Assembly: GCF_004103715.1 (NCBI RefSeq)
Contig: NZ_CP035282.1
Location: forward strand, 2,842,673 to 2,906,672
Reading direction: 5' to 3'
Length of the DNA: 64,000 nt
Source of the DNA: Acidilutibacter cellobiosedens
GTDB lineage: Bacteria; Bacillota; Clostridia; Tissierellales; Acidilutibacteraceae
Both the position numbers and the translations under genes were made by a program. Positions 2,186-57,673 of the stretch are shown here, piece by piece; the stretch's first letter is position 1, and the number at the start of each line of letters is the position of its first letter. The notes under the pieces were generated by a model. It had not been told where the DNA came from, did no database searches, and was given only the letters and a program-made list of their open reading frames with translations.

Positions 2186-4063
2186 TTACTCAACAAATAT
2201 TTTACTTAATTCAAATTTATATTCCTCCCTAATCCCCGCCTTCCTGATTATCTTCCACATTTGCAGTTCCTCTCCTTCTTTCTCTAATTCCTTAACTGCC
2301 CAGCGAAACCTTCTTAACCTGAAGTCATGATTGGTCTCCTTAACAGAATCCAGGTATGCTTTTGTCTTTGGAAGTTTATCTAAATGCTTTCCAAGCAAGC
2401 CTCTTATACCTAATTTACTACCAATTAGACTAATAGTAATCCTTTCAGGCTTTTCGTCCGAATTCAGCATCTTATCAACTATTTCTTTTATCTGAGACAA
2501 TATCTCATTATCTCTTTGATTCCAATCAACTCTGCTTTTTACAGTATTAGACACTTTTTTATCAGGTGAGTTCTGGTTTAGCCATTCCCTGTCATTTCTA
2601 TAAAGCCAGGCAAATAAAGCCTTATCAACCTGCCGTAATTGCGTTTTTCCCATCTCTGGATATTGCTTTCTTAATTCATTCCACCTTTTTCTGTAGTAAT
2701 CCTTATCATCCAAGTTCTTTGAAGAATAACTGCTTTTTTCATTATCATATACAACATCAGCCTCACTCCGCTTTCCCCAGTAAGTCGTTAATCCAAGTTT
2801 CTTAGCATACTTCTTAACTGTAATAGGGTCTACCCCTAATAACCTTGCTGTTTCTCTTAAACTCAACTTTCGGTCTAATAATTCTTTGAGTTTCTCCTCC
2901 CATACTTGTCCAAACTTTTTTATCCTTCCGAATCTATATCTTGCATCCTCAGACTCATCTGGCCCACTTCTGGTATAAACAAAACCGCAAGCACAGGAAA
3001 AAGTCCCAACAGGACATTTTGAATCTGTACTGTGTGAGACCTTTAAATCAAAAACAACTGGTTTCAGATAATGGTCTGCCGCTGCATTCAAACAAGGCCA
3101 CGGTCCATCCCCAAATGGTTTATATTCCATCTTTTTATAAAATAAATCAGGAAGAGAAATTCCAAGAAAACGGGACAAAAGCAAATGTCTGATAGGATGA
3201 GCAGTCTTGTTTTTCTTCCTTAACATATCCATCAGCCAATTTGAATCGTTATCGACATCAACCCTAGACTGAACAATTTCTAAAAATTCTTCACCGTAAT
3301 AATTAACAAACTCTTTTATAAACTCCTTTTGATGCACTTTTCCGTTTGAAGTTGCAAATCCCATTTCTATCATCTTTGCAAGATACTGCTCTTTATACCA
3401 TTCTATATTTCTCTTTTCAAAATCACTGTTAAGTAAAATCTGAGCATCCTCTGCAAGCCTAACCAGTTTTTCAAAAACATCAGCAGCGTATATCACATCA
3501 ATATCTGGCTTTACACAGTTCTCTTCGCTAGCAGCCTTATATTGGTATTTGTTATATCCCCTGACCAGTACCAGGCTATTATATAAAGGAACATAATGTT
3601 TTAGGCATACTAGTACCCCTGGTATTTGATGAACTCTATGCCAGTATAACTCTCCGTACTGAAACTTATCTTCTTTAGCGCAGATAGGACAAAACTTAAA
3701 ATACTGGTTTAATACTATAGAACTGGCCATAATTCCAGTCCGGCTGTATATGCTTCCTCCATTTTCCCCTTTCATTGATTGAAAAACTTGTTCTGCACGC
3801 TCAGGAGGTAAGAAAGCAGAATAGAATGGAAGAAGTGTATGCCTTTTAATAAGATATTCTTCAGTATACCTGGAATTAAGGGGCATATTATTGACGAGGT
3901 TATGTATATTGGAAGGCAAGTCCATCACCGCTGTTACGAAAGTTGACCCAAATAGGTCTCTTATTGTCGCCTTATAACTTATATTTCCACTCCGCACATG
4001 GTATCTTGCAAGGACGCTGTATAATACTTCATCCTCATAAGGCACAGGAAAAAACGTCATCAT
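2186..4063 (-). CDS. tnsD: TnsD/TniQ-family target selector of a Tn7-like transposon
   Basis: This 625-residue protein has the TniQ fold: an N-terminal FFPVPYEDEVLYS segment, a zinc-binding cluster starting CPIC near residue 145 and followed by HRVHQIPG and LKHYVPL, a second cysteine pair near 355, then helix-turn-helix segments such as LSLRETARLLGVDPITVKKYA. TnsD proteins of this length bind an attachment site directly, classically the 3' end of glmS, and hand the target to TnsC. The island ends beside glmS (32175), which fits that specificity, although binding cannot be shown here. It is the last gene of the tnsABCD operon, 5 bases after tnsC. Confidence 0.93.
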   Translation of the reverse strand: MMTFFPVPYEDEVLYSVLARYHVRSGNISYKATIRDLFGSTFVTAVMDLPSNIHNLVNNMPLNSRYTEEYLIKRHTLLPFYSAFLPPERAEQVFQSMKGENGGSIYSRTGIMASSIVLNQYFKFCPICAKEDKFQYGELYWHRVHQIPGVLVCLKHYVPLYNSLVLVRGYNKYQYKAASEENCVKPDIDVIYAADVFEKLVRLAEDAQILLNSDFEKRNIEWYKEQYLAKMIEMGFATSNGKVHQKEFIKEFVNYYGEEFLEIVQSRVDVDNDSNWLMDMLRKKNKTAHPIRHLLLSRFLGISLPDLFYKKMEYKPFGDGPWPCLNAAADHYLKPVVFDLKVSHSTDSKCPVGTFSCACGFVYTRSGPDESEDARYRFGRIKKFGQVWEEKLKELLDRKLSLRETARLLGVDPITVKKYAKKLGLTTYWGKRSEADVVYDNEKSSYSSKNLDDKDYYRKRWNELRKQYPEMGKTQLRQVDKALFAWLYRNDREWLNQNSPDKKVSNTVKSRVDWNQRDNEILSQIKEIVDKMLNSDEKPERITISLIGSKLGIRGLLGKHLDKLPKTKAYLDSVKETNHDFRLRRFRWAVKELEKEGEELQMWKIIRKAGIREEYKFELSKIFVE

Positions 4064-4068
4064 ATGCG

Positions 4069-5724
4069 CTACACCGCCTTGAAAAAGTCTTTTTCTACCT
4101 GCTTAATAAGCCCTTTTTCTTTTAATGATTCATAGGCTGATTTTTTATTTCTCCTGCCCTCTTCCACAATAAACCTTATATCATTTTCATCCATATTCTT
4201 TGCTTTACTTTTTTCCTCTTGTTTTGATTTACCATTGGTTGCTATCATCTGTACAGCCTTTATTACAATCTCAGAAACTTCAAGCCCTTCTTCATTATCA
4301 AGTACCTTCTCAACTGCTTTTTGAGCCTTTTTGGCATCAATATTTAAGTCCAGCAATTTAAGAATTGCCTGTTCCTTCTTTGAAAGATTGACTTCCTCTT
4401 CTTTTTTCTTTTGCTGCTTTTGAAGCATTTTCATCCTCATGTCCCAATATACTGACTGTTTGCTTTTGTCCACAAATCCCATAAAATCAATGTCTACAGT
4501 GCAAATATCTTCATATTTTGCGATTTCTTTAATATTTCCTGATTTTAATGCTTCCAGCATAGGACGAACCAATTTTAAATTATCTTTTGCAACCTGCCTA
4601 ATCAGATTTGCTGTGATAACCTCTTTCCCTGAAAGAATAGCCCGTATTTGTGACATCGCATAAAGTTTTACCGCAATGTCTATAATGCCTTGTGACTCTT
4701 CATAGAGAACATCACTTAATTCAGGTGTTAGCGGTACTTCCTTTTTGGTCCATTGATAGTCCCAAAATGCATTGATAATCAGTTCCCAACTTTTATCTTT
4801 GCTCAACCTCTCCCAAATCATATCCCCTTGTCCGCTTCCACGCCTTGCCTGACGGAATTCAGATTGCAAAACTGATAATGCTTTTGTTGTACCAATAAGT
4901 ACAGTAGGCACTCCGATAGTATTTACAAGGGTGACAAAAAAGTTAAGCATCTTTTCATCCCCTCCGCTTTTTGCACTGCTCAGATGTTGAATCTCGTCAA
5001 TTACTAATACTCCTAACGCTGTATTTCTGGCTATCTGAGACATAACGGAGAGCATAGTGTCTACTGTATTCCTACCTACCCCGAATTTCTTATGATAGTC
5101 TGTACCCAACAGGTCATCTACCTTATGGAAGAACTCAATACACAAGCCTTTCAAAGAACCATCAAAAGGGCAGTCCAACTTAAGCCAAACCAGTTGGTAC
5201 ATACTAAAATTGGTATTATTATATTCTGAATGTACAATTATCTGGGGATAAAGAGATAATACACGGTTGATAGCAGTTGTTTTACCCATTCCACTTACAC
5301 CTATAATAGTAAATCCCGATGCAGTAGTCCTGAAGGATGCGTTACTGCTTAACTCCCATTTCATGCTTTGTATTGCCTTATATCCGTTTTGTAGACTTTC
5401 AGCATAGGAAGGTTTAAATGGGTTACGTGCCAGGTATCCCTGCCTTATGACTCTGCTTATCCTGCTTTCAAGGTCAATATGAATACTCAACGGCTGAAAA
5501 CACTGAAACAACCGCTGCACCATATGAATACGGTAGTGGCCTTCCAATCGTCTTTCCTCTGGATTATAGTGGGGATATAGAGATAGTTTATCCACTACCT
5601 CTTCCTTAGAATAAACCGGTGGTAGTGCTTCAATAAATGGATTCCCGCTATATTCAGGTATCAACTGTTCCTTGTATTCTGCAACTACAGCATTAGCACC
5701 GTTAGGTATTATTACTTTATTCAT
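4069..5724 (-). CDS. tnsC: TnsC-family AAA+ ATPase, transposition regulator
   Basis: The protein has 551 residues. A Walker A motif (GVSGMGKTT) lies near residue 143 and a Walker B motif (VLVIDEIQHLS) near 240, as in TnsC, the ATPase that links the target selector to the transposase. The C-terminal 120 residues are Lys/Glu-rich and may form a coiled coil that contacts TnsA/TnsB or TnsD. The start overlaps the tnsB stop by 8 bases, so translation is probably coupled. No defects are visible. Confidence 0.93.
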   Translation of the reverse strand: MNKVIIPNGANAVVAEYKEQLIPEYSGNPFIEALPPVYSKEEVVDKLSLYPHYNPEERRLEGHYRIHMVQRLFQCFQPLSIHIDLESRISRVIRQGYLARNPFKPSYAESLQNGYKAIQSMKWELSSNASFRTTASGFTIIGVSGMGKTTAINRVLSLYPQIIVHSEYNNTNFSMYQLVWLKLDCPFDGSLKGLCIEFFHKVDDLLGTDYHKKFGVGRNTVDTMLSVMSQIARNTALGVLVIDEIQHLSSAKSGGDEKMLNFFVTLVNTIGVPTVLIGTTKALSVLQSEFRQARRGSGQGDMIWERLSKDKSWELIINAFWDYQWTKKEVPLTPELSDVLYEESQGIIDIAVKLYAMSQIRAILSGKEVITANLIRQVAKDNLKLVRPMLEALKSGNIKEIAKYEDICTVDIDFMGFVDKSKQSVYWDMRMKMLQKQQKKKEEEVNLSKKEQAILKLLDLNIDAKKAQKAVEKVLDNEEGLEVSEIVIKAVQMIATNGKSKQEEKSKAKNMDENDIRFIVEEGRRNKKSAYESLKEKGLIKQVEKDFFKAV

Positions 5725-7882
5725 GGATTTTCTTCAAAGCCTCCTTTTGTTTTCTTATCAAAAGGCTTATCGTATCATTCTCGTCCACCTCTTCCTCCTG
5801 TTCTGCCCTGCTAAACGGTATAACTTCTGCATTACTTCCTGTTTCTTTTTTATCCAGTTCAAAGGCTTCTTTCTCCCTGTTTAACATCTTTTCTAATTTT
5901 CTGTTGTTTCTAATCCCTTTTTTACGTTTCGAATCGCTTTCATTTGATTTTTCTTCTTTAAAAGATTTTTCTGCCTCTTTTGCAATACTTTCAATTTCAG
6001 TAATTAAATCAACCTTTGCCTGCAGTTCCTTATCTTCTGCAATTTTTATTCTAAGTTTCTCATCTTCAAGAAGGTATTGAATTTCCTCAAGATTTTTATC
6101 TTGATACCTATCCTGGTGTTCCAGAAGAAAACATTTCTCGAAGTCCATACCATTTTGCTCTTTGACATAAATAAAGTTCATATTGCGGGGGTCATAGGAA
6201 ACATCAATCTTCCATGTTCCTTTATTTCGCGCCTTTTCAAACCATCTCTCCTTGAGAGTTTTTGGTGAAGCATAATACAATCCTTTGAATTTTATTCCCT
6301 TTGCTGTTACAGTTGCCGCATCTGAAGGCATTAGATTTAGTTTAACGATATCCTCTGGTACACTTCGCAATTTTCCCGCACGGTTCGCAATCCCCCAGTT
6401 CCATATTTCCCGTGGAATGCATTCTACTTCATCAGCAACCATCATCTCTTCCCTGTCATAGTTTTTAAGATGATACTGGTTATTATGGTACAAGGCACAT
6501 TTTATGATTATCTGTGTAAACTGGTATATATCCAATTTGGCATCCAACCTGTAATCCCTGTCGCCACGCTCTCTCACATCAGGGTCAACAGTACCAGGCA
6601 AAAGCGGTCTTACCCTTAAATTAGTAATTCTGAAATGCTGTTCAACAATTGCTTTCCAGTCTGCCCGATATGGCGGAGTATTCTGTATCTTTACATGCAG
6701 AGCATTAATAAGGTTTTCAACATTTTTTCCTTCAAGTTCCCCTCTGTCTGCCAAAATGGACTCTGGCAAGTGATGGACAGGCCAGTCCTTTTCTTCAATA
6801 TCTATTCCATACTCTTTGCAAAAGGCAACTTTGTCGGACGCTGCATTTACAAGAGCCATCATGGCCCCTATCCAACTCGGACCCTCTAAGCCAACATAAA
6901 TACCAACAACCATTCTGCTGAAAACATCTAAAACTGCGTAAATCACCGGTCTTCCAATTATCCAGTTCCTGTTATACCGGCTCACAAGGTAAATGTCGCC
7001 TACAGTTGCATCAATCTGATAGATACTTCCTGGCGCAATTGCTTCGGAAGTTGTATTGCCTAAAAGGGGTCTATACTGCTGCTCATATTTTTTGCTGCTT
7101 TGTCTGGATGAAATTTGCTTTTTGAAATTGATATTCTTATAATACCAGTAACGGAATTGGGCATATGTAGGAACCTCACCTATAGTTTTTATTACAGGAA
7201 CTCTTATTCCGTTTTCTATCTTAAATTCATCACTGAAGAATTCCTTTCTCATCAGTTCATATGCAAGTTTAAGAGAATTTTTGGCGCTTGTATGATAGTA
7301 TTTATTGATAGTGACATTGAATATCCTTTTTATTTCTTCATCTACATTGATTCCCTCACCCACCAGTTCAGCATTTTTTCTTCTGCGCCCACGCTTTTTG
7401 TCTCCTGCCCGCCTTTCTTTTCCCGGGCCTCCGCATAAATAGTAGTCCGGAAGCAAGGCGTTCTTTGTTTTCCCTCTCTTCCAGAATCGTTTTAGGTAAT
7501 TTGAAATAGTTTTGGCATGCAAATTATAAATTGCCGATGCCTTTAATACGAGTTTTCTCCGTTCTTTCTTATAAAAAATAACAGGTTCAAGCACAACCAG
7601 TTCCTTAATTACTTCCCATGCTTTATCACGTATTTCTTTTGATTTCTCTGATAATTCTCCTTCATCAATAACCTTAACAAACGGGTCGCTATCCAATATG
7701 TTTGCATTCCCCTGCTTAATGCCCTCTTCAATATCAGAAATATACCTTAGGAAAGGACTTTCATTTGAATATATGTTTATAACATATGCAATGTTTTGCT
7801 GCCTATCAAGCCATAAAATCCTTCCCACGTTTTCTTTATCATTATCATGTTCCCATTTGATTAATGTATTTACCGCTATCAT
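5717..7882 (-). CDS. tnsB: TnsB-family DDE transposase
   Basis: The protein has 721 residues, the usual size for TnsB. The DDE triad is visible: Asp in YQIDATVGDIY near residue 292, Asp in ILADRGELEG near 377, and Glu in AIVEQHFR near 412. A basic N-terminal part with winged-helix character should bind the end repeats, and a charged C-terminal tail should contact TnsC. TnsB makes the 3' cuts and strand transfer. The end repeats it would recognise are probably the GGACCGACTTTATT-like sites at 8939 and in the element at 25484-25934. The start overlaps tnsA by 4 bases. Confidence 0.95.
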   Translation of the reverse strand: MIAVNTLIKWEHDNDKENVGRILWLDRQQNIAYVINIYSNESPFLRYISDIEEGIKQGNANILDSDPFVKVIDEGELSEKSKEIRDKAWEVIKELVVLEPVIFYKKERRKLVLKASAIYNLHAKTISNYLKRFWKRGKTKNALLPDYYLCGGPGKERRAGDKKRGRRRKNAELVGEGINVDEEIKRIFNVTINKYYHTSAKNSLKLAYELMRKEFFSDEFKIENGIRVPVIKTIGEVPTYAQFRYWYYKNINFKKQISSRQSSKKYEQQYRPLLGNTTSEAIAPGSIYQIDATVGDIYLVSRYNRNWIIGRPVIYAVLDVFSRMVVGIYVGLEGPSWIGAMMALVNAASDKVAFCKEYGIDIEEKDWPVHHLPESILADRGELEGKNVENLINALHVKIQNTPPYRADWKAIVEQHFRITNLRVRPLLPGTVDPDVRERGDRDYRLDAKLDIYQFTQIIIKCALYHNNQYHLKNYDREEMMVADEVECIPREIWNWGIANRAGKLRSVPEDIVKLNLMPSDAATVTAKGIKFKGLYYASPKTLKERWFEKARNKGTWKIDVSYDPRNMNFIYVKEQNGMDFEKCFLLEHQDRYQDKNLEEIQYLLEDEKLRIKIAEDKELQAKVDLITEIESIAKEAEKSFKEEKSNESDSKRKKGIRNNRKLEKMLNREKEAFELDKKETGSNAEVIPFSRAEQEEEVDENDTISLLIRKQKEALKKIHE

Positions 7883-8724
7883 AGAACTCTCACCCTTTCT
7901 GTTAAACTGGGATTTATGATTTCTATACTCCGGGTCGAATTATTAAGGTCGATTTTTTTATTCATGTCCACCATTATCTTTTTAAGGGCAATTAAGCGCT
8001 TAAATATGTATATCCCTGTACCTGTGTCCAAATTAAACAGCCTGTCAAACTGCACAGTGAAATTTCTAATCGATGTATTACTTCCTTCCAATTTGTCAAT
8101 AAAAGCATTACAGTAATAGTCAACCTCTTCATCTGTAAGTCCTCTTTCATCGGAAGGATACAAGGATGAGTGAATCCATTCGATGTTCTTTGCCTTAACC
8201 ACTGGAATCTCTTTTTGTGTTACTATTCCCCAATCAATATTTTGGCTCTGCCAGTATCTCCTCTCTATTTCCAACCTTTCTAATGCTGTTTTGCGCTCAA
8301 GTTCATAGTCTGCTTTAAGACTTCTGGCAACATATACTATTTTATCGTTTGGTTTTTTCAAGGTTATAAAAAATGATGTAGATAAAATGTATGGCGTTCC
8401 TGTATCTTTGTCTTTAAATAAATTAAAATTTAAGCCAGCCTTGTTTTGCATTACTTCTTCACAATCAAATAAGGGGTAATGTTCCCTGATATCTAAAACA
8501 TCATCCTCCCATTCCAACAGATAAAAATACCGTGCTTCCGAATCCGTAAAAAAATGATGAATTCTTTTTGTTTTCCATCCAAATACACGTGTAACCCTTC
8601 CTTTGCTGGGAAAGTCCTGTACAGTAAGCCAGGGCTTGTAATCCTTGCCTTCCCCCTGTCCTCTGCCTTCCTGTATCCATTTTTTTAATTTATTTTCATC
8701 CCAATCTATTTTCCGTTTAGCCAT
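7879..8724 (-). CDS. tnsA: TnsA-family endonuclease with altered active site
   Basis: This 281-residue protein is the first gene of the tnsABCD operon. It follows TnsA along its length: Glu63 in the SEARYFYLLEW segment matches the catalytic Glu, and Lys137 in VARSLKADYEL matches the catalytic Lys. The position normally held by the catalytic Asp in a (T/S)TDFL motif reads STSFF, so Ser117 replaces it (codon TCA). A TnsA lacking that Asp is expected to lose 5'-strand cutting, which would turn cut-and-paste transposition into cointegrate formation. The N-terminal helix-turn-helix and C-terminal TnsC-contact region appear intact. A terminator-like hairpin and a TnsB-type site lie upstream. Confidence 0.9.
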   Translation of the reverse strand: MAKRKIDWDENKLKKWIQEGRGQGEGKDYKPWLTVQDFPSKGRVTRVFGWKTKRIHHFFTDSEARYFYLLEWEDDVLDIREHYPLFDCEEVMQNKAGLNFNLFKDKDTGTPYILSTSFFITLKKPNDKIVYVARSLKADYELERKTALERLEIERRYWQSQNIDWGIVTQKEIPVVKAKNIEWIHSSLYPSDERGLTDEEVDYYCNAFIDKLEGSNTSIRNFTVQFDRLFNLDTGTGIYIFKRLIALKKIMVDMNKKIDLNNSTRSIEIINPSLTERVRVL

Positions 8725-14531: not shown

Positions 14532-15583
14532 TTATTTTACAGCAAACATTTGTGGTATAAACATATTTTTATCTTCTACTTTGACTTGTACATACTTAAT
14601 GTTTTCAGAAGAAGTATAATCGCTAATATTATGCTTTCCTTCTCTGGCGTCCTTAAGTATATTTTCTATATCATTTCGATTCTTAAACCTCATTACTTCA
14701 ATGAGTTCTTTTTGTTCAATTTCGCCTTTATAATCATTTAGTAAATTATTTAATCTTTCAGAAGATGCACCTCTCCACTCATAAATCATTTGTTTAGAAT
14801 CAGCAAAAAATATGGCTTTATTTTTTTACCTATTAATTTTTTTACTATTTTGTCTTGTAAATCTGATGAATCTTGGTATTCATCTAGTATAATAAGATTA
14901 TATTTGTTTTGAATTACACTTAATAACGTCTGCGACTTATTTAATAATTCCATCATATAATAGGCTATATCTGAAAAACCTATGTACCCTTCTTTATTAA
15001 CTTCTTTAATTATATTTTTGATATCTTCCTTATAAGGAATAAGTTTTTTTACAGAGGCTTTGACATTTCCATAGCGAGTTAAAGGTGTAAAATCCCCTTC
15101 AAGCAAAGTCTCAGCCCAGTCATATTGGTCTTTATTATTTATGTCATACCCTGGTATTGTTGAAAATTTTCCCTGAAGTATTTCTCTCCTTTGCTTAGGC
15201 GACATAATAATTAAATTTTCTTTCAGCCCCAAATATTTACTATACGCCCATACATACTTCTGAAAAAATGAATGAAAATTTGTTATCTCTATATATTTCC
15301 CCCAATTAATATCATCAGAACTTAATATATCTAACTGTTTCTCTATTTGTGCTCTTGCATTTTTTGAAAATGTTAATATTAAAACTTTTTTACTGTAACG
15401 AGGATTATTCCTAATATTAAAACGTACGTAATTCATTGCTGTTGCTACTGCTGTAAAAGTTTTTCCAGTACCAGGTGGTGCTTCGACCAGTAATATTCTC
15501 TTATTGGTATTATTTTGAGTAAAATAATTAATAATACTTTCTTGTTCTGGATTAGGTTTAATCATTTTATTCGCCTCGCACAT
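14532..15583 (-). pseudogene. GajB-like UvrD/Rep helicase, frameshifted and truncated
   Basis: The first part (15583 down to about 14812) shows UvrD-family motifs: Walker A EAPPGTGKTFTA near residue 34, motif Ia LILTFSKNARAQIEKQL, and Walker B LIILDEYQDSSDLQ near 228. The frame then breaks in a run of six T near 14806-14812. One extra T would restore FFADSKQMIYEWRGAS, the conserved helicase motif after Walker B. The second frame (14789-14532) ends exactly at the IS21-like element, so the last third is gone and no remainder is visible beyond the IS. Adjacent to an OLD nuclease, it is the helicase half of a Gabija-like system, now inactive. Confidence 0.85.
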
Positions 15584-17462
15584 TTAGAACATTATTATAT
15601 CCTTTTCTAATATACGCACATTTTTCGCAAATATCAGCATATGAAAATAAAGGATTAACTGCTTTATGAATTACACATCTTTTAGAATCTTCACAAACAA
15701 AATTGCTATCAACATATACACCTATAAGATTAAACATGTTTTTAAATTCCACAGCGAGAAAATCTTCAATTTCTTTTTCCTCTGCTTCACTTACCAAGTA
15801 TGAAGCAACATATTTAGCATTAGGTATACCTGCAAGATTAATATGTAAAAACTCTCTTTGAAATTCTTTAATTTCATTATCACTTAACAAATTAATTAAT
15901 TGTTCTAAACTTTTCGATTGCTCAATCTCTTGTAAATTATTATTATATTTATCTTTAAGAATATAACTTTTTGAACTTCCTGGTCTGAACGGTTTCAAAT
16001 AATCATCTTTATATTTTTTGAATTCATGTATTTCTTCAAATAGTTCCTTCCAACAATCCTGAAAAACTTGCATACTTATTATTGCTGTTTCATAATCTTT
16101 GGGCAAAATCAGAATTAAGCATTTTACCTGATTTTTCATAAAATTATTTAGTAAACGTTCAATATCAGCATCGTTATCAACCAAGCATATACAAGGAATA
16201 TTACATTCACTAAAGAATTTCGCATATTTATAAATTTCATCTTTTCCTCCTCCCATTATCAAATCTACTCCATTATATTCCAAGCCTTTCTTATACTTTT
16301 TTGAAAATATAGAGAGTCCAGATAAGTCTGCTTCTCCTTCAACTAATAGAACACCTTTAGAAAATAATCCTGAGATTAAATCTATTTTTGCATACTGTTC
16401 AATTTTTTTCTTAAATTTATTATCAACATACTCTAATGAAGGAAGAGGTCTAATTTCACCATCTCTCATCAAAAAGATGTTTTCAAACTCATGCATTTTT
16501 GCTACTTCAATTGAATGAGTCGTTAAGAAAATTTGACCTTTTATTGTATCAGTAATGTTTTGTATTATTTTCCGCTGCATAAATGGTTCAAGGTTTTGCT
16601 CTGGCTCTTCTAAAAATAATATTCCTGTTTCCTTTAACATTTCTCCTAAAGCAATTAGCAGCATTAAATTTTTTATACCTTTTGATTGATATTTAATTGG
16701 TATATACTTTTCCGTATTCTTATTTTTAAAAACAAGACTAAAGGCTTGCAATGTTTTACTTTCACTTAATTCAGTGGCTTCTAGACTTATAGCCACTTCA
16801 TCATCTGAAATCAAATTAAAGTTAGCGAAGTTATTACCTAAATTTTCTAATGCTAACTTAAAATCTGGGTCTTTCATTAAGCAAGCAGTAGTAGTATTAT
16901 TAAATTCTTCTATTATGCTTTGAATTAAGACATTTAAGTTATCATGATGTATAAATTTTGATAATACTGAATTTCTAACAAAAGATAGTTCCTTAAGCGG
17001 GTCTCTCTCTGATTCTATGTATTTAAAATTGATTATACCTTTATGTACTTGTTTGAAAGAATGCTCTTTTCCATTTGAAAAGATACTATGTATTGGCTTT
17101 TTATCAGGTCCAGCCTTAAACCTTGTAATCAAAACTAATTCTTTTCCATTTTCACTAATATTATCATTTTCATCAACATGTTCAAAATATAACTCTCCAT
17201 CATCCTCAATAAAGTCATCCAAATCTTTAAACCACACTTCAATCAAAATAGTGTTTGACGTGTTTCTATCATAATAGTCAATGTCAGATAATGTTCTATT
17301 GTACCATTGAATATACGGATTGAGTAAATAATCTAAAGCAGTTGCCAATGTTGATTTTCCACAACCGTTAGGCCCAATTATCACATTAACATTTTTATTT
17401 GGTTTCCATTCTAGTTTTTTAATACTCCTGAAATTTTCAATTATTATTTTATATATATACAC
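15567..17462 (-). CDS. OLD-family ATP-dependent nuclease, GajA-like
   Basis: The N-terminal half is an ABC ATPase: IIGPNGCGKST near residue 28, signature-like YQSKGIKNLMLL, Walker B ILFLEEPEQNLEP, and LTTHS as H-loop. The C-terminal half is a TOPRIM nuclease: LLVEGEADLSGL and CLVDNDAD. An extra cysteine cluster at the C-terminus (CEDSKRC, CEKCAY) could bind zinc and is not a usual GajA feature. The GTG at 17462 is chosen because GGGGGAG is well placed upstream. It overlaps the helicase gene by 17 bases. GajA with GajB forms the Gabija anti-phage complex; with GajB broken, this gene alone may not defend. Confidence 0.85.
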   Translation of the reverse strand: MYIYKIIIENFRSIKKLEWKPNKNVNVIIGPNGCGKSTLATALDYLLNPYIQWYNRTLSDIDYYDRNTSNTILIEVWFKDLDDFIEDDGELYFEHVDENDNISENGKELVLITRFKAGPDKKPIHSIFSNGKEHSFKQVHKGIINFKYIESERDPLKELSFVRNSVLSKFIHHDNLNVLIQSIIEEFNNTTTACLMKDPDFKLALENLGNNFANFNLISDDEVAISLEATELSESKTLQAFSLVFKNKNTEKYIPIKYQSKGIKNLMLLIALGEMLKETGILFLEEPEQNLEPFMQRKIIQNITDTIKGQIFLTTHSIEVAKMHEFENIFLMRDGEIRPLPSLEYVDNKFKKKIEQYAKIDLISGLFSKGVLLVEGEADLSGLSIFSKKYKKGLEYNGVDLIMGGGKDEIYKYAKFFSECNIPCICLVDNDADIERLLNNFMKNQVKCLILILPKDYETAIISMQVFQDCWKELFEEIHEFKKYKDDYLKPFRPGSSKSYILKDKYNNNLQEIEQSKSLEQLINLLSDNEIKEFQREFLHINLAGIPNAKYVASYLVSEAEEKEIEDFLAVEFKNMFNLIGVYVDSNFVCEDSKRCVIHKAVNPLFSYADICEKCAYIRKGYNNVLNVRGE

Positions 17463-17477
17463 CTCTATCTCCCCCAA

Positions 17478-49636: not shown

Positions 49637-49750
49637 CTTCTTATCCAGAGAGGTGGAGGGACTGGCCCTATGAAACTTCGGCAGCGGATTCTTTTCATTA
49701 GAGAATGCTGTGCCAATTCCAGCAAGCTTTATAGCTTGGAAGATAAGAAG
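49637..49750 (+). ncRNA. SAM-I (S-box) riboswitch
   Basis: The P1 arms CTTCTTATC / GATAAGAAG close around the S-box core AGAGGTGGAGGGACTGGCCC, then ATGAAAC and GCTGTGCCAATTCCAGC. A terminator stem (49775-49810) follows, so high SAM should stop transcription of the downstream M20 peptidase gene. Confidence 0.92.
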
Positions 49751-49810: not shown

Positions 49811-49847
49811 CATTTTCATAATATGTCAGAAGAAGGTGATGCTTAAA

Positions 49848-51053
49848 ATGTCAGAAGAAATAAAACAAAAGATTTTAAAAGATGTAGAATCCAATAGTTC
49901 TAAGTATATTTCCATAAGTCATGAGATTCACGATCACCCTGAAATAGGAAATGAGGAAATCTTGGCCAGTAATCTATTAACACAGCTTTTAATATCAGAA
50001 GGTTTTTGCGTAGAAAAAAATGTAGCAGGTCATCCCACAGGATTTATTGCAAAAAAGGAATCTTCTCATTTATCGGGGCCTACCATTGGATTTTTAGCCG
50101 AATATGATGCACTTCCTAAATTAGGTCATGCTTGCGGCCATAACATCATAGGAGTCAGTAGTGCCGCGGCAGCAATTGCTTTAGGAAAAGTATTGGACGA
50201 AACGGGAGGAAAAGTTGTAGTTTTAGGCACTCCTGCCGAGGAAGGAGGAAATAACGGAAGTGCCAAAGGAAGTTTTGTAAAGCATAATCTATTGAAAGGA
50301 ATCGATGCTTGTTTAATGGTTCATCCCGGAAATAAAACATATACTACAGGAAAATCTCTTGCGGTAAATCCCCTTGATTTTGAATTCATAGGAAAATCCG
50401 CTCATGCATCAGCAGCTCCCGAAAAGGGGATTAATGCCTTAGATGGAGTTATACTTTTATTTAATGGGATAAATGCTCTGCGTCAGCATGTAACAAGTGA
50501 TGTAAGAATTCATGGAATAATTACCCATGGTGGAGATGCGCCTAATATTATACCTGAATATGCCAAAGCCCGCTTTTTCATAAGAGCAGATACAAAAATT
50601 AAATGCGACAAAGTCACTCAAAGAATAAAAGGCATTGCTAATGGTGCCGCTCTTGCTACCGGAGCAAAGGTAAATATTATTGAATTTCAAAATTCAGTTG
50701 ATAATATTCTGCCTAATAAAAAATTTGACGATGTTTTTAAAGAAATCTGAGAATCCTTTGGTTTAGATATTCATTCGCCGGAAAATAAAGCCAGTGGATC
50801 CAGTGATGTTGGAAATATCAGTCACGTAGTGCCAACTATTCAGCCTTCAGTTAAAATAGGTCCTGACAATTTAGTAGGACATACAATAGAATTTAGGGAA
50901 GCCGCTCGTTCAAAGGATGGTGACAGAGCCCTCTTATTAGGAGCTAAAACATTGGCTTTAACAGGATTAAAATTAATTTTAAATAAAAAATTGTTGAAAG
51001 AAATTAAAGACGAGTTTGAATATCAATTAAAGAATGAAGCTAATGAATTTTAA
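49848..51053 (+). pseudogene. M20-family amidohydrolase/peptidase broken by an in-frame TGA
   Basis: The frame shows M20D motifs: LAEYDALPKLGHACGHN near residue 85 (metal site), TPAEEGGN near 128, IDACLMVHPG near 153, GKSAHASAAPEKGINALDG and the last metal region GSSDVGNISHVVPTIQP. A TGA at 50748-50750 splits it after VFKEI; the same frame then continues ESFGLDIHSP to 51053, about 402 codons in all. The TGA site is not an active-site residue in the family, so selenocysteine is unlikely. Under SAM control it probably released sulfur amino acids from N-acyl or dipeptide forms. Confidence 0.8.
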
Positions 51054-51267: not shown

Positions 51268-52185
51268 TTAGCTAAATATTCCCGTACTTAAATATCTCTC
51301 TCCATTATCCGGAGCAATAGCCAATACAGTTTTGCCTTTTCCTAATTTCTTTGCCCATTGTAGTGCTGCATAGACCGCTGCTCCCGATGAAATTCCTACA
51401 AGTATCCCTTCTTCCCTTGCCAGTTGTCTTGTAGTTTCAATGGCATCTTCATTAAATACCGTATTTATATCATCCAATAAATCAAGGTCCAGTATACTTG
51501 GAACAAAGTTAGCTCCTATTCCTTGTATTTTATGAGGACCTGCTTTTCCTTCAGACAATAAAGGTGAAGATTTTGGCTCTACGCCTACTATTTTCACATT
51601 ACTGTTCTTCTCCTTTAGAACCTTCCCTACTCCTGTAACTGTGCCTCCTGTACCTATACCTGCAATAAATACATCTATGTTACTCCCCAGATCTTTGAGT
51701 ATTTCTTGAGCTGTGGTTTCAATATGGGAAAGAGTATTATTTTCATTGCCAAACTGATAAGGTATATAATAATTTGAATTTTGCTTTGCAAGTTCTTCTG
51801 CTTTATCTACTGCTCCCTTCATCCCGTTTGAGCCAGGAGTTAAAACAACCTCTGCTCCAAAAGCTTTGAATAAATTTCTTCTTTCTATACTCATAGTTTC
51901 CGGCATAACAAGAATAACTTTATATCCCTTTGCAGCACCTACCATGGCAAGACCTACTCCGGTATTTCCGCTTGTTGGTTCCACTATTACATATCCTTTT
52001 TTTAACTTTCCCTCTTCTTCAGCTTTTTCAATCATATATAGTGCTGGCCTATCTTTAACACTTCCACCCGGATTAAAATATTCAAGTTTTACATATATAT
52101 CCGCATAATCTTTCCCTACCAATTTGTTTAATTTGACGATAGGTGTGTTGCCTATTAGCTCTAATACATTTGTTGCAACTGTCAT
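51268..52185 (-). CDS. cysK: O-acetylserine sulfhydrylase (cysteine synthase)
   Basis: The 305-residue PLP enzyme has the Schiff-base Lys in [13 protein letters not shown] near residue 43, substrate loop [12 protein letters not shown] near 69, and [13 protein letters not shown] near 177. It makes cysteine from O-acetylserine and sulfide. A T-box with a TGC specifier lies upstream, so expression rises when tRNA-Cys is uncharged. No cysE is adjacent. Confidence 0.96.
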
Positions 52186-52768: not shown

Positions 52769-54421
52769 TTATGAAATATTTATTTCATAATCAATATCTC
52801 CGGCCATTATTCTTTCAATTCTCTCTCCTTCAGTAATTACCCTGTTCAATTTCTCATCAAAGGGGTACATTCCTCCATTTACAATTCTTGTAGTTAATTT
52901 CCCGCATGCAGCACTATTTCCTTTTAAATGAGGTGCATCAAGAATACCTATTTTAACCGCTTCTTCAAGAATAACAGGATCTGTTAGAGGATCTTTTGAA
53001 CTGTTAGATAGACTCTTAATGGAATTTATTATTATGCTGCCGTCTTTTATAAGCTGAGCCTTCCTTCTCTGAACATCTATATCGTCAACCATATTTATAT
53101 CTCCCAAGAATATATTTTTCAAAACTCCCCTAACTATCATACAGGATTCTATTATATCATCTGCTGTTGCCGCATGATGAGCTTCACAATATCCTACTAC
53201 GTGGTATATATGAGGTTTTATAGCCATAGATAGATAAGCAGATGATGCCAACTGTCCTTTTGCCTGGTATAGATTAGTAGGAAAACTTGCGAGGCCGGCT
53301 CTCGCTTGACGGTAAACCCTAAAATTCTCGTCTTCTAAGTTTTCAATAAGCTCTATCATTGCTAACATCTTGGCTAAGTCCATCTTAGGAGATATTGATG
53401 CAGGAACGTTAAACATATATTGTGAAATATAATCTTTTACTCCCATTTTCTTTGCATTATAGGCTGCCAAATAAGCCGTAGCCACTCCTACAGCATCATG
53501 AGCATCTCTCAAACTCCAATGATGAGATTCGTTTGCCTCTACAGGTATATTTCTCTGGCCATGCCACTTCATAACTTTTTGATTTTCCCTTATTGCTTCT
53601 TTTATTTTTCTGGGTCCTCTTTTATCTAACTCACTGTACCAGAACAAGGGGACAGCACACCAGGCATTATGAATAGTTTCCTGAAGCATTTCACTGTACT
53701 TGATCAAATTTTTTGTTCCGCTATAACATCTCATCAGAGGATAATTCCCCTTCTGAGCTGCTTCATATAACTTCGAGAAATCTTCTTTTGTCCTTAGCGG
53801 AACTCCTCCTGCTCCATCTAACCTCGAATCCATTTTGTCCTGGTCAAAAAAGTATTCCTGAGCATTTTGGTCCGGAGCAATGGATATTACATCCAGAACC
53901 TTTGAATCCGATATTTTATCAATAGCTCTGACAGTTTCCTCAACCGATGAAAGTCCTATATGATGTCTTAGTACAGGATATGGATATTTCCAATTAATCC
54001 TTGATATTAAATCTCTGGGATACGTTTCCTCCACTCTTAATTTTTTATTTCTCAAAATGGATATTACTTCGTCTACGTCTTCACCTCCATAAAATACTTT
54101 CTTAAATATACCACTTTTTTCGGCTACCTTCCCTGTCGGTTCCGTTCCCCCAAAGAGCCATATCTTATCTTTCAAATCTGATTTCTCCAATTTCTCTTTT
54201 AACTCATTTAGAATAGCTTCCAAAGGCTCCGGACTTAATCTATAGCTTAACCCTATTACATCCGGATCGGAACATTTTACATTTTCAATCACATCATCAA
54301 TAGGTAAAGATATTCCCATAAAATCTACTTCATATCCTTCCCTCTCCGCTAAAGCAGAAAAGTTCATTACACCGGCTACATGCACACAATTTCCTATTGT
54401 ACAAAGAGACATTTTTTTCAT
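52769..54421 (-). CDS. B12-binding-domain protein fused to a mutase-like TIM barrel
   Basis: The 550-residue protein begins with a cobalamin-binding Rossmann domain. The DxHxxG motif is modified to CVHVAG (Cys12, His14, Gly17), followed by LAEREGYEVDFMGI and VIGLSYRLS. The remaining 400 residues resemble the glutamate-mutase large subunit barrel (GGVPLRTKEDF, CYSGTKNLIKY, HHWSLRDAHDAVGVATAYL, QARAGLASFPTNLYQAKGQ). It thus looks like a single-chain B12-dependent carbon-skeleton mutase of unknown substrate. It starts at the last base of the dehydrogenase gene, so the two are coupled, downstream of a c-di-AMP riboswitch. Confidence 0.7.
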   Translation of the reverse strand: MKKMSLCTIGNCVHVAGVMNFSALAEREGYEVDFMGISLPIDDVIENVKCSDPDVIGLSYRLSPEPLEAILNELKEKLEKSDLKDKIWLFGGTEPTGKVAEKSGIFKKVFYGGEDVDEVISILRNKKLRVEETYPRDLISRINWKYPYPVLRHHIGLSSVEETVRAIDKISDSKVLDVISIAPDQNAQEYFFDQDKMDSRLDGAGGVPLRTKEDFSKLYEAAQKGNYPLMRCYSGTKNLIKYSEMLQETIHNAWCAVPLFWYSELDKRGPRKIKEAIRENQKVMKWHGQRNIPVEANESHHWSLRDAHDAVGVATAYLAAYNAKKMGVKDYISQYMFNVPASISPKMDLAKMLAMIELIENLEDENFRVYRQARAGLASFPTNLYQAKGQLASSAYLSMAIKPHIYHVVGYCEAHHAATADDIIESCMIVRGVLKNIFLGDINMVDDIDVQRRKAQLIKDGSIIINSIKSLSNSSKDPLTDPVILEEAVKIGILDAPHLKGNSAACGKLTTRIVNGGMYPFDEKLNRVITEGERIERIMAGDIDYEINIS

Positions 54422-55542
54422 TAGGCAACCACTCCTTCTTTATTATCTAATAATTTTCCCGTTCTGGCCAAATGGTGTATTTGAAATTTATCCAGTCCTT
54501 CCAATCCCAATTTTTTAACTGTTCTTCCCTCTTCCCAGAAATTTTTTCCGGTAATTATTTCTGAAAGAACTATAATTGAATCTATTGCCGGAGTCTCTAT
54601 ATCTAATTGCTTTGCTAAAGATGACATGGGAACAAGACTACAAGGAACATCTTCGTAAATATATCTGATATTAAGACCTTTAGGAGATTTAAGCCCTTTA
54701 TAGGCCGGATTATTTTGAACAGCATCATATAAGGTATCTCCTTTTGAGCCATAAGTTTCATATAGCCAGTCTTTTGCAGACATAGTATCTATGTTTAACT
54801 TATCAGCTATTTCCATTCTCTCTTTATCCATCCGTTCAATAAACCTTCCTACAGATGGAGTTATTCCTTCAGTATAATAATCAAACGTTATGCCTCTTTC
54901 TATATGACCGCTATTTAATAAAGTAGGTGCCGGATGAAATATGGCTCCAAAATTATTTAAGCTTGTTTCCATTACATCCTTGGCAGGTATGAATTGAGAA
55001 AATATGGGTGAAATTTTTGAAATTACTTCTTCGGTTCTGCTCGCAGGTATGGCTGATAAAGATACCTCTTTTTTGCTTTTGAATATATGAACTTCATTGT
55101 TTCCGGTTATCCTGCATGCATATATAAGGGATTGAGCTTCTGCTACGACTACATCTTGAGCAGTGCATTCGGAATTTCTGATATTTTCATATACTTCTAA
55201 TGCTCCCCCTGTTCTTCCCGGATTCAATATTATAATCTGTTCATCCTCTAAGTAAGGTGCTATGTTTTGAGAAATAAATTTGTGACCTACAGCAGGAACC
55301 GTAACCATAATTATATCCGTATTCTCTATAGCTTCCCTTATATTATCAGTAACTTTGTTTAACCGTCCGCAACCTTCTATCTCACCGGTTAAATGTATAA
55401 TTGGATTCTTGATTAATGACATTATATTTTCTTCAGTTCTATTATATAAATTTACCTCATATCCTTTCATAGCAATATATCCGGCTATTGCTATGCCCCC
55501 ATTTCCTGCTCCTAACACTGAATATCGTATTTTTTTATTCAT
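54421..55542 (-). CDS. NAD(P)-dependent octopine/nopaline dehydrogenase-family protein
   Basis: From ATG 55542 (AAAGGAGG upstream) the 373-residue protein has an N-terminal Rossmann fold (YSVLGAGNGGIAIAGYIAMKGYEVNLYNR) and the family's C-terminal helical domain, with NNFGAIFHPAPTLLNSGHIE (catalytic His) near residue 215. Relatives join an amino acid to a 2-oxoacid reductively, or oxidise the product. The substrate is unknown. It pairs with the B12-mutase-like gene. Confidence 0.82.
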   Translation of the reverse strand: MNKKIRYSVLGAGNGGIAIAGYIAMKGYEVNLYNRTEENIMSLIKNPIIHLTGEIEGCGRLNKVTDNIREAIENTDIIMVTVPAVGHKFISQNIAPYLEDEQIIILNPGRTGGALEVYENIRNSECTAQDVVVAEAQSLIYACRITGNNEVHIFKSKKEVSLSAIPASRTEEVISKISPIFSQFIPAKDVMETSLNNFGAIFHPAPTLLNSGHIERGITFDYYTEGITPSVGRFIERMDKERMEIADKLNIDTMSAKDWLYETYGSKGDTLYDAVQNNPAYKGLKSPKGLNIRYIYEDVPCSLVPMSSLAKQLDIETPAIDSIIVLSEIITGKNFWEEGRTVKKLGLEGLDKFQIHHLARTGKLLDNKEGVVA

Positions 55543-55629
55543 GCAATTTCCTCCTTTAAATTTATTTTCTGTCATAATCTAAACTGGTATTTACTTATAA
55601 AGGGCTCTTATTAAAAAGTCATATATTGA

Positions 55630-55706
55630 GGAAACCTTTCTTGGAAATCCATTTTATGAAAAGTTCACATTAAGGTAATTTAAGATTTTCCTATGGGTTG
55701 TAAAAC
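55630..55706. repeat. interspersed intergenic repeat, copy 4
   Basis: GAAACCTTTCTTGGAAATCC ... CCTATGGGTTGTAAAA aligns with the reverse complement of copy 3 over about 75 bases, including the ATTAAGGTAA centre. It lies in the leader between the riboswitch and the dehydrogenase gene. Confidence 0.65.
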
Positions 55707-55720
55707 ATGAGGGAAAATTA

Positions 55721-55744
55721 AAAGACTATGGAAGCATAGTCTTT
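55721..55744 (-). terminator. riboswitch terminator
   Basis: AAAGACTATG / CATAGTCTTT with a TTTAATTTT tail on the minus strand, directly after the c-di-AMP aptamer. Confidence 0.8.
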
Positions 55745-55767
55745 ATATAAGAATTACTTCCCCTTTA

Positions 55768-55874
55768 GTGCTTACGAGGTTAGCTGTCGGATTCGGGCAA
55801 AAGGGCTTGCCCTACCATATGGATTCACCCCATTTAATTGGTTCCCCCGCTTCTCTGAATTTCAGAATTAAGCA
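55768..55874 (-). ncRNA. c-di-AMP riboswitch (ydaO/yuaA class)
   Basis: On the minus strand GAGAAGCGGGGGAACCA, TGGGGTGAATCC, CCCGAATCCGACAGC and TAACCTCGTAAGC are the conserved blocks of the class, in order and spacing, closed by GCTTA / TAAGC. With the terminator it should switch off the dehydrogenase and B12-mutase-like genes at high c-di-AMP. Confidence 0.88.
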
Positions 55875-56300
55875 AATATTAAATTTATTGTTAAAATGTT
55901 AACTAATGCCCTATAAAATTTATTATTTTAATAAAAATAATAATCAATATCATTAAAATCATTTGGAAAAAATTGAAAAATATTTAAGTTAAAAAAAATA
56001 ATATCACAAATTAGTAATACTTAAATTATTAAAATTAGAAAATTTACAAGATATAATATAAGGTATAAATATATAAGAAAAGTCTTTAAATAAATAGCAG
56101 TAAAAGTTAACAAATTTATCTTATTAGATATATTATATACTAAATTAATTAATTTTGCAATTATTTTATTAAAAAAATTACCAAATTTTTCGAACTATTT
56201 ACTTACAGTATTTATACAATTTATTATTTGGACTGCCGCTTCGAAATCAGGAAATTTTCAACAAAAAATTAATAGATTTTTAAACAAGTGGAGTGATATA
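55875..56300. other. AT-rich promoter region
   Basis: It is very AT-rich and has no gene. It should hold the promoters for the riboswitch transcript (left) and for the cysteine desulfidase (right). Individual boxes cannot be told apart from the background. Confidence 0.35.
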
Positions 56301-56348
56301 ATGATAGATGAAAAATATTGTAAAGTAAAAGTCAAAAAAATTTATTGA
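56301..56348 (+). CDS. possible 15-aa leader peptide before the cysteine desulfidase
   Basis: GTGGAGTG precedes ATG 56301, which opens MIDEKYCKVKVKKIY and stops at 56348. The stop falls in the 5' arm of a hairpin (TTTATTGAAAA 56341-56351 / TTTTCAATAAA 56365-56375) just upstream of the main gene. The single Cys codon hints at cysteine sensing, but this is inference. Confidence 0.35.
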   Translation: MIDEKYCKVKVKKIY

Positions 56349-56395
56349 AAATGTTACGAAAACCTTTTCAATAAAATATAAATCAGGGGGTACTT

Positions 56396-57673
56396 ATGAA
56401 AAAAGATGATGCTCAATATAAATCCTATTTAAAAGTTTTACGGGAAGAATTAGTGCCGGCTATGGGCTGCACAGAACCGATTTCCATCGCCTATGCAGCC
56501 GCAAAGGCAATGGAACTTTTGGGAAAACTACCCGAACAATGTAGAATAGAAGTCAGCGGAAACATAATCAAAAATGTAAAAAGTGTTGTTGTCCCAAATA
56601 CTAACGGTTTAAAGGGAATCGAAGCTTCTGTTGCCGCGGGAATAATAGCAGGGGATGCGTCTAAGAAATTAGAGGTACTATCCAATATTACAAAAGAAAT
56701 GAAACCCAAAATCCGCGAATATCTCTTAAGTCACCCTATTGCCGTAGTGCCAGCAGATAACGATATGATTTTTTATATTGATATTATATTGCAAAATGGC
56801 GACCAATGGAGTGAAGTCATTATTGAAGGATATCATACTAATATTACTCAAATGAAATTAAATGGAAAAGTACTATTTCAAGCTGAAAGAACAGAAAATC
56901 CCGATAATAATTTTTCTAATCAAGGGCTTTTAAACATAAAAGATATCGTTAAATTTGCTAATATTGCCGATATTGAAGATTTCAGAGAACCTATAGGCCG
57001 ACAAATTGCTTATAACAGTACTATTTCTGAAGAAGGACTGAAACATAATTGGGGAGCTAATGTCGGAAAAACAATATTAAAAACCTACGGTACAAATATT
57101 GCCATGAGAGCAAAAGCTGCCGCTGCGGCAGGATCCGATGCTCGTATGGGGGGTTGCGAAAAACCGGTAATTATCGTGTCTGGGAGCGGAAATCAAGGGA
57201 TAACGGCAGTTCTTCCGGTAATAGAATATGCAAAAGAGCTTAATGTATCAGAGGATAAATTATATCGTGCTGTGGCACTTTCCGATTTAGTTACAATTTA
57301 TCAGAAAACGGGTATAGGAAGACTGTCTGCTTTTTGCGGAGCTGTCTGTGCAGGGTGCGGTTCAGGTGCAGGAATCGCATATCTTCATGGAGGAGGTTAC
57401 AAAGAAATAGCTCATACTATTGTTAATGCCCTCGCTATCGTATCGGGAATCGTATGTGATGGGGCAAAGCCGTCATGTGCTGCTAAGATTGCTGCATCTG
57501 TAGATGCAGGGATATTGGGCTACGAAATGTATAAAAACGGTCAGCAATTTCGAAGCGGAGACGGAATCGTTACAAAGGGAGTAGACAATACAATTTCCAA
57601 TGTGGGGCGAATGGCCAGAGAAGGCATGAAAAGCACCGATAAAGAAATTTTAAAAATCATGACGGGACATTAA
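56396..57673 (+). CDS. cyuA: L-cysteine desulfidase (CyuA/UPF0597 family)
   Basis: The 425-residue protein has the iron-sulfur dehydratase-like pattern of the family: PAMGCTEPISIAYA near residue 21, GSGNQGITAVLPV near 265, SAFCGAVCAGCGSGAGIA near 315 and GIVCDGAKPSCAAKIA near 355, giving cysteines for a [4Fe-4S] cluster. It degrades cysteine to pyruvate, ammonia and sulfide. AGGGGG precedes the ATG. It counters cysK, so the two should be regulated oppositely. Confidence 0.9.
   Translation: MKKDDAQYKSYLKVLREELVPAMGCTEPISIAYAAAKAMELLGKLPEQCRIEVSGNIIKNVKSVVVPNTNGLKGIEASVAAGIIAGDASKKLEVLSNITKEMKPKIREYLLSHPIAVVPADNDMIFYIDIILQNGDQWSEVIIEGYHTNITQMKLNGKVLFQAERTENPDNNFSNQGLLNIKDIVKFANIADIEDFREPIGRQIAYNSTISEEGLKHNWGANVGKTILKTYGTNIAMRAKAAAAAGSDARMGGCEKPVIIVSGSGNQGITAVLPVIEYAKELNVSEDKLYRAVALSDLVTIYQKTGIGRLSAFCGAVCAGCGSGAGIAYLHGGGYKEIAHTIVNALAIVSGIVCDGAKPSCAAKIAASVDAGILGYEMYKNGQQFRSGDGIVTKGVDNTISNVGRMAREGMKSTDKEILKIMTGH

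Follow-up and report, generated by a model that had tools for sequence, protein, structure and literature searches.

A c-di-AMP riboswitch linked to an opine dehydrogenase and a B12-domain protein in Acidilutibacter cellobiosedens: a candidate compatible-solute module

Cyclic di-AMP (c-di-AMP) riboswitches are reported to control transporters of K+ and amino acids as well as proteins of cell-wall remodelling and osmotic shock (PMC7266159). In Dehalobacter, a tandem Na+/c-di-AMP riboswitch with a terminator precedes lysine 2,3-aminomutase, an enzyme that the authors link to an osmolyte precursor (PMC9337991). Here, we describe a stretch of 64,000 nucleotides (nt) from Acidilutibacter cellobiosedens (Bacillota; Clostridia; Tissierellales; contig NZ_CP035282.1, positions 2,842,673-2,906,672; hereafter the window), in which a c-di-AMP riboswitch of the ydaO/yuaA type precedes the genes of an opine dehydrogenase (ODH) and a B12-domain protein. 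The likeness to the Dehalobacter system lies in a c-di-AMP switch and terminator placed before a (here putative) amino-acid mutase; that system, however, involves lysine 2,3-aminomutase with a named product, whereas a B12-type protein paired with ODH is found here. We lean towards the view that the operon is OFF-switched and makes an amino-acid-derived compatible solute.

The aptamer occupies 55884-55754 on the minus strand and matches RF00379 over the entire model (108 bits against a gathering score of 38 bits, E 8.7e-25, model positions 1-134 of 134). A genome-wide scan gave two RF00379 matches in total, this one included. An intrinsic-terminator-like element with a 10-bp stem, a 4-nt loop and the tail TAATTTT follows 9 nt past the aptamer (55744-55721, minus strand); one element of this kind was found in 55400-56450, compared with 0.4 in shuffled sequence. 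The ODH gene (54421-55542, minus strand, 373 amino acids) starts at the ATG at 55542, which is preceded by AGGAGG and lies about 212 nt past the aptamer; an earlier in-frame ATG is located at 55575. Its stop codon overlaps the ATG of the B12 gene (52769-54421, minus strand, 550 amino acids) in the motif TAATG. The initial annotation, which had proposed a ydaO-type switch and terminator before a coupled pair of octopine-dehydrogenase-like and B12 genes, is well supported by these data and by the family profiles (PF02317, E 2.1e-47; PF02310, E 1.1e-10). Its interval 54421-55874 took in riboswitch and ODH but extended no further than the initial ATG of the B12 gene. The cysteine synthase gene further downstream (51268-52185) was considered as a member of the unit and rejected, because a 583-bp gap separates it and it does not adjoin the pair in the other loci of the order that were inspected, as judged by eye.

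Terminator-like stem-loops with a T-rich tail were found after the aptamer in 40 of 42 riboswitch-ODH leaders, compared with 100 of 2100 shuffled controls that keep base make-up only. By origin, 34 of the 35 leaders from the order have one, as do 6 of 7 leaders chosen out of the phylum set described below, and no such element was found in the leaders of genomes G121 and G337. In G337, two tandem c-di-AMP aptamers stand directly before ODH (L237, 2949-3075 and 3215-3338, minus strand). Combined with established knowledge of this riboswitch class, the leader elements suggest termination when c-di-AMP is high, i.e. an OFF switch. The full-length match followed by a terminator-like element conforms to the RF00379 class. 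The difference lies in the target, as literature searches returned no ODH/B12 pair among the targets of this class. Two diadenylate cyclase domains are encoded in the genome of A. cellobiosedens; a domain of this kind is located at G000:C1:2908240-2908593 (minus strand), about 1.6 kb past the right end of the window.

Linkage within the order was surveyed in 199 genomes with ODH as query, counting places at E 1e-20 or better; RF00379 matches over cut-off numbered 97, in 67 of these genomes. A riboswitch lies within 600 nt upstream of all 35 ODH places at 59-100% identity and of none of the 61 listed places at 27-45%, a contrast for which Fisher values take no account of shared ancestry. Conservation of the riboswitch-gene linkage, raised in the initial annotation, is thus evident among close orthologues as opposed to the listed paralogues. 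For 20 of the 35 genomes the ODH-linked riboswitch is the only RF00379 match over cut-off, so that these genomes would respond to c-di-AMP by riboswitch through this module alone. Both genes are found side by side in 30 genomes of the order. In 25 of them the riboswitch precedes ODH by 73-260 nt, and the pairs of the remaining five, which lack it, are the most distant ones (B12 identity 43-51%). ODH lacks an adjacent B12 gene in 10 of the 35 genomes, and 9 of these 10 encode a divergent B12 paralogue of about 640 amino acids elsewhere, compared with only 3 of the 25 genomes that carry the pair. In G006 and G001, the riboswitch stands directly before this divergent paralogue, followed by a distant ODH relative. 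The reversed B12-ODH pair of G001 sits among genes of the kinds that also flank pairs elsewhere, with oxoacid:ferredoxin oxidoreductase genes before it and tRNA nucleotidyltransferase and phosphoglucosamine mutase genes after it (named by eye). At another locus, L072, a divergent B12-ODH pair is embedded in what we read as a surface-polysaccharide locus, a setting which suggests production of an opine-type sugar substituent in some relatives.

Across the phylum, matches to the B12 protein at E 1e-40 or better occur in 85 of 398 genomes, that of A. cellobiosedens included, and the linkage counts rest on 80 of the 84 other genomes with a match. ODH is adjacent to the B12 gene in 73 of the 80 (71 upstream, 2 downstream). 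In 30 genomes the distance between a riboswitch and the first gene is at most 900 nt; 6 of the 7 genomes without adjacency have a separate ODH under its own riboswitch; and in four more (G520, G564, G609 and G672) the riboswitch is located further upstream, with a ligase-like gene between it and ODH. The module thus carries a riboswitch in 40 of 80 genomes (30 + 6 + 4). A tree of B12 proteins from 107 of 110 genomes (G605, G669 and G368 (short) left out) was built by a quick method and has long branches. It requires no fewer than 12 changes of linkage state, 8 of them forced by starred branches, which implies that the linkage was gained or lost repeatedly; gain and loss cannot be told apart on this tree. 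One clade of 43 rows, the window included, is linked throughout. Among four named contigs, the whole arrangement is present in Thermovorax subterraneus (Bacillota) and in a Thermoanaerobacterales bin. A plasmid search gave no match. Aimed at learning the substrate, a search of the flanks of about 0.9 kb before ODH at unlinked pairs revealed no RNA switches other than c-di-AMP riboswitches.

By family profile and catalytic His/Arg/Asp, the ODH is a PF02317 member of the CENDH type. Its nearest solved relative is CENDH itself (N-(1-D-carboxylethyl)-L-norvaline dehydrogenase, 1bg6; E 2.8e-81 over residues 6-352), whereas the match to octopine dehydrogenase 3c7a is weaker (E 4e-13). H202, R292 and D297 of CENDH, presumably the catalytic residues, align to H203, R293 and D298, which are identical in 114 of 115 aligned rows (window included, some genomes counted twice), the remaining row being gapped. 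The coupling to a B12 gene and a riboswitch sets the present enzyme apart from CENDH. Opine dehydrogenases reductively join an amino acid and an alpha-keto acid in a reversible reaction, and the carboxyethyl group made by CENDH is D-configured.

The B12 protein comprises an N-terminal cobalamin domain (PF02310 on residues 8-118) and a C-terminal GlmE-like barrel; its remaining ~430 residues gave no Pfam match at E 0.001. Comparison of the C-terminal profile with a GlmE profile of five sequences by hhalign returned 86.8% (24 sequences) and 88.4% (126 rows, some genomes twice) over about 350 columns. The decoys remained far lower, with 1.5% for methylmalonyl-CoA mutase and at most 0.6% and 4.2% for six other families in two runs, and 20 column-shuffled GlmE profiles did not exceed 0.4%; as a yardstick, GlmE against methylmalonyl-CoA mutase gave 89.7%. 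In the cobalamin motif DxHxxG, the His (H14) and Gly (G17) are conserved in 118 of 119 rows, one being gapped, while the Asp is replaced by Cys in 104 rows and kept in 14. Both profile alignments place R66, R100 and R149 of GlmE, which we take to be the three-arginine glutamate site, opposite H154, Q188 and Y233, and K326 opposite V409, whereas E330 aligns to E413, identical in 117 of 119 rows with two gapped. As identity is only 15-16%, these residue-level statements are tentative, and residue numbers and roles in GlmE are those we assume. In neither alignment was the three-arginine site found in the B12 protein, and no match to PF06368 was found anywhere in the genome of A. cellobiosedens. 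Assignment as a glutamate mutase was rejected, since the arginine site is replaced.

We therefore read the protein as a putative B12 mutase with the glutamate-mutase fold and another substrate. By profile comparison, it shares with the GlmE/GlmS glutamate (methylaspartate) mutase the barrel, a cobalamin domain with invariant His and Gly, and the glutamate E413 in the place of E330. It differs in carrying both parts on one chain with the cobalamin domain first, in the substituted arginine and lysine positions, and in a gene that adjoins opine dehydrogenase in most phylum cases. Lysine 2,3-aminomutase, for its part, is a radical-SAM (S-adenosylmethionine) enzyme.

A third gene, encoding a D-Ala-D-Ala-ligase-like ATP-grasp protein, is located beside the pair or the divergent paralogue in at least 16 genomes within the short flanks surveyed (11 among the 80 phylum genomes, 3 among the 30 genomes of the order with the pair, and 2 where it accompanies a paralogue). 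Two kinds, about 31% alike, can be distinguished, the L049 kind in 4 of the 16 genomes and the L071 kind in the rest. The gene is divergent from ODH in six genomes (G311, G480, G504, G552, G596 and G639) and follows the B12 gene in G427; in G013, G040 and G057 the riboswitch lies between ligase gene and ODH. Four of the proteins were scanned with the NCBIfam models for D-alanine--D-alanine ligase; their scores of 121, 203, 174 and 179 bits fall short of the 243 bits of the best model and of every cut-off among the best 25 models listed. The Pfam ligase C-terminal domain was over cut-off in both proteins scanned. At an identity of at least 68%, the L049 kind is matched in 16 of the 35 order genomes with ODH (in G062 as two separate fragments) compared with 0 of 164 others; the match of A. 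cellobiosedens is encoded far from the window (G000:C1:1786857-1787855).

The other targets of this riboswitch in the order provide context. By our tally, 37 of the 97 riboswitches head the ODH/B12 module and 51 others were viewed through their first reading frames, with 9 left out; eight representatives of the 51 were scanned with NCBIfam and the remainder named by eye. The second riboswitch of A. cellobiosedens precedes an EhuB-type ectoine import gene (over cut-off). Further riboswitch-headed genes encode TrkH K+ uptake and a thiamine-diphosphate enzyme (both over cut-off), as well as a betaine/proline-type ABC ATPase (ProV-like) with permease (ProW-like), a CPA2 antiporter, a WalK-like kinase and a SleB-like hydrolase (all under cut-off). 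In G025, a glutamate 2,3-aminomutase gene with its own c-di-AMP riboswitch (TIGR04368, 707.5 bits against a cut-off of 650; L057, 6977-8290, minus strand) lies directly upstream of the riboswitch-ODH-B12 unit. This enzyme catalyses a step to beta-glutamate, which PMC9337991 counts as an osmoprotectant; the same paper places the beta-glutamate gene eam with the osmoprotectant genes that have Na+ riboswitches. A second c-di-AMP riboswitch beside the ODH-B12 operon of G626 (L245, 5441-5606, minus strand) precedes a glutamine-hydrolysing asparagine synthase (over cut-off), possibly an amidation step.

As the simplest common meaning of these other targets is osmotic balance, the module is taken to make a compatible solute. 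At high c-di-AMP, the bound switch would end transcription before the ODH-B12 operon, and hyperosmotic stress would lower c-di-AMP and allow readthrough. The ODH would condense an amino acid reductively with an alpha-keto acid. The B12 protein, as an adenosylcobalamin-dependent mutase with the glutamate-mutase fold but another substrate, would rearrange the amino-acid building block. In several lineages the D-Ala-D-Ala-ligase-like enzyme may add an ATP-driven bond; given the D-configured carboxyethyl group made by CENDH, that carboxylate could serve as target for a D-Ala-family ligase. Together, the enzymes would make an amino-acid-derived compatible solute. Of this picture, the riboswitch, the terminator-like element, the linkage and co-occurrence of the genes, the fold relationship and the conserved residues are observed here, and the OFF logic, the activities of the enzymes and their sequence, and the role in osmolyte production are inferred. 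The initial annotation had suggested that the pair might make or remove an osmolyte. The osmolyte part fits both the other riboswitch targets of the order and the lysine 2,3-aminomutase precedent (PMC9337991). Making appears likelier than removing, since an OFF switch keyed to c-di-AMP should express its genes under osmotic stress. The pair itself was recognized in that annotation, but the recurring ligase-like gene and the breadth of the module were absent from it. More tentatively, and with less confidence than the production of a solute as such, the three-enzyme route (ODH, new GlmE-fold B12 mutase, ligase-like ATP-grasp enzyme) could yield an opine or opine amide that represents a novel class of compatible solute, and in much of the phylum this pathway would rank among the main biosynthetic outputs of c-di-AMP signalling.

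Several observations weigh against a compatible-solute operon under c-di-AMP control. In the other 40 of the 80 phylum genomes, the module carries no RF00379 match over cut-off (G657, among these, has a match under it, 35.3 bits), so that the enzymes can stand under other control. The switch is missing from a Bacteroidetes bin (L006) that has the pair, and both switch and adjoining ODH are missing from a Thermosediminibacterales bin (L005) that has the B12 gene; in G088, ODH is present and no B12 relative was found. AlphaFold2, run on the B12 protein with five sequences, gave a poor model (pLDDT 51.8) that was not used, for which reason the profile-profile comparison was employed instead. Moreover, cell-wall hydrolases and sensor kinases are also headed by c-di-AMP riboswitches of the order, and the regulon alone is therefore no proof of an osmolyte. 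The hydrolases would suit a module that makes or modifies a cell-wall precursor, with ODH and the ligase-like enzyme as a reductase-ligase pair altering the peptide stem and the mutase supplying an unusual amino acid. A peptidoglycan-hydrolase-like gene upstream of the unit in G009, on the same strand (120.7 bits, cut-off 240), the resemblance of the third enzyme to D-Ala-D-Ala ligases and the polysaccharide setting of L072 point in the same direction. Still, we consider a cell-wall role rather unlikely, as the four ligase-like proteins scanned stay under the cut-offs of the ligase models listed and the L049 kind was found in only 16 of the 35 ODH genomes of the order.

Alternatively, the pair could degrade an amino-acid-derived compound, such as an opine or a branched amino acid, for nutrition, with c-di-AMP gating for another reason. 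Known B12 mutases with the glutamate-mutase-type fold serve fermentation, the ODH reaction is reversible, and a gene of the M20-amidohydrolase kind follows ODH in G108 and G088 (that of G108 was scanned). We regard degradation as unlikely, because elsewhere in the order many of these riboswitches precede uptake and ion genes that are of use under osmotic stress, one heads a beta-glutamate-forming enzyme, and an ATP-spending ligase-like gene recurs beside the pair. A separate promoter downstream of the terminator, which the initial annotation had named as a threat to its reading, would remove the pair from aptamer control. One promoter-like site (55704-55677, minus strand, 9 of 12 matches) does lie between terminator and ODH, a further point against riboswitch control, and 16 such sites were counted in the scanned stretch compared with 7.9 (standard deviation 3.2) in shuffles. 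However, the 16 sites are spread over both strands, only this one falls between terminator and ODH start, and consensus matches are no evidence of function. With aptamer and ODH together in 35 of 35 close orthologues and a terminator-like element in 34 of those 35 leaders, control by such a promoter is very improbable.

Elsewhere in the window, a SAM riboswitch (RF00162, 90.9 bits, 49638-49749, plus strand) precedes an M20 amidohydrolase gene (49836-50750, plus strand), the product of which looks shortened (304 amino acids, covering 1-289 of 366 of TIGR01891). A row of Tn7-like transposition genes at 2186-8724 (minus strand) encodes TniQ/TnsD, a TniB-like ATPase, a protein with a Mu-type transposase C-terminal domain, and TnsA (Pfam), and is adjoined by a gene for a SIR2-domain protein (73-2016, minus strand). 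An overlapping pair at 14786-15583 and 15567-17477 (both minus strand) encodes an OLD-like ATPase/TOPRIM protein and a UvrD-like helicase. The SIR2 and OLD-like/UvrD-like layouts are presumably of the kind seen in anti-phage systems.

Literature searches found no description of an ODH/B12 module under a c-di-AMP riboswitch, though the gene tables of the original ydaO and c-di-AMP papers (Block 2010, Nelson 2013) may contain an entry. In summary, c-di-AMP riboswitches point to osmotic-balance genes, and here one marks a widespread enzyme module. Solving its product would add a B12-dependent solute route and would assign a role to a family of B12 proteins in which Pfam recognized nothing in the C-terminal domain.

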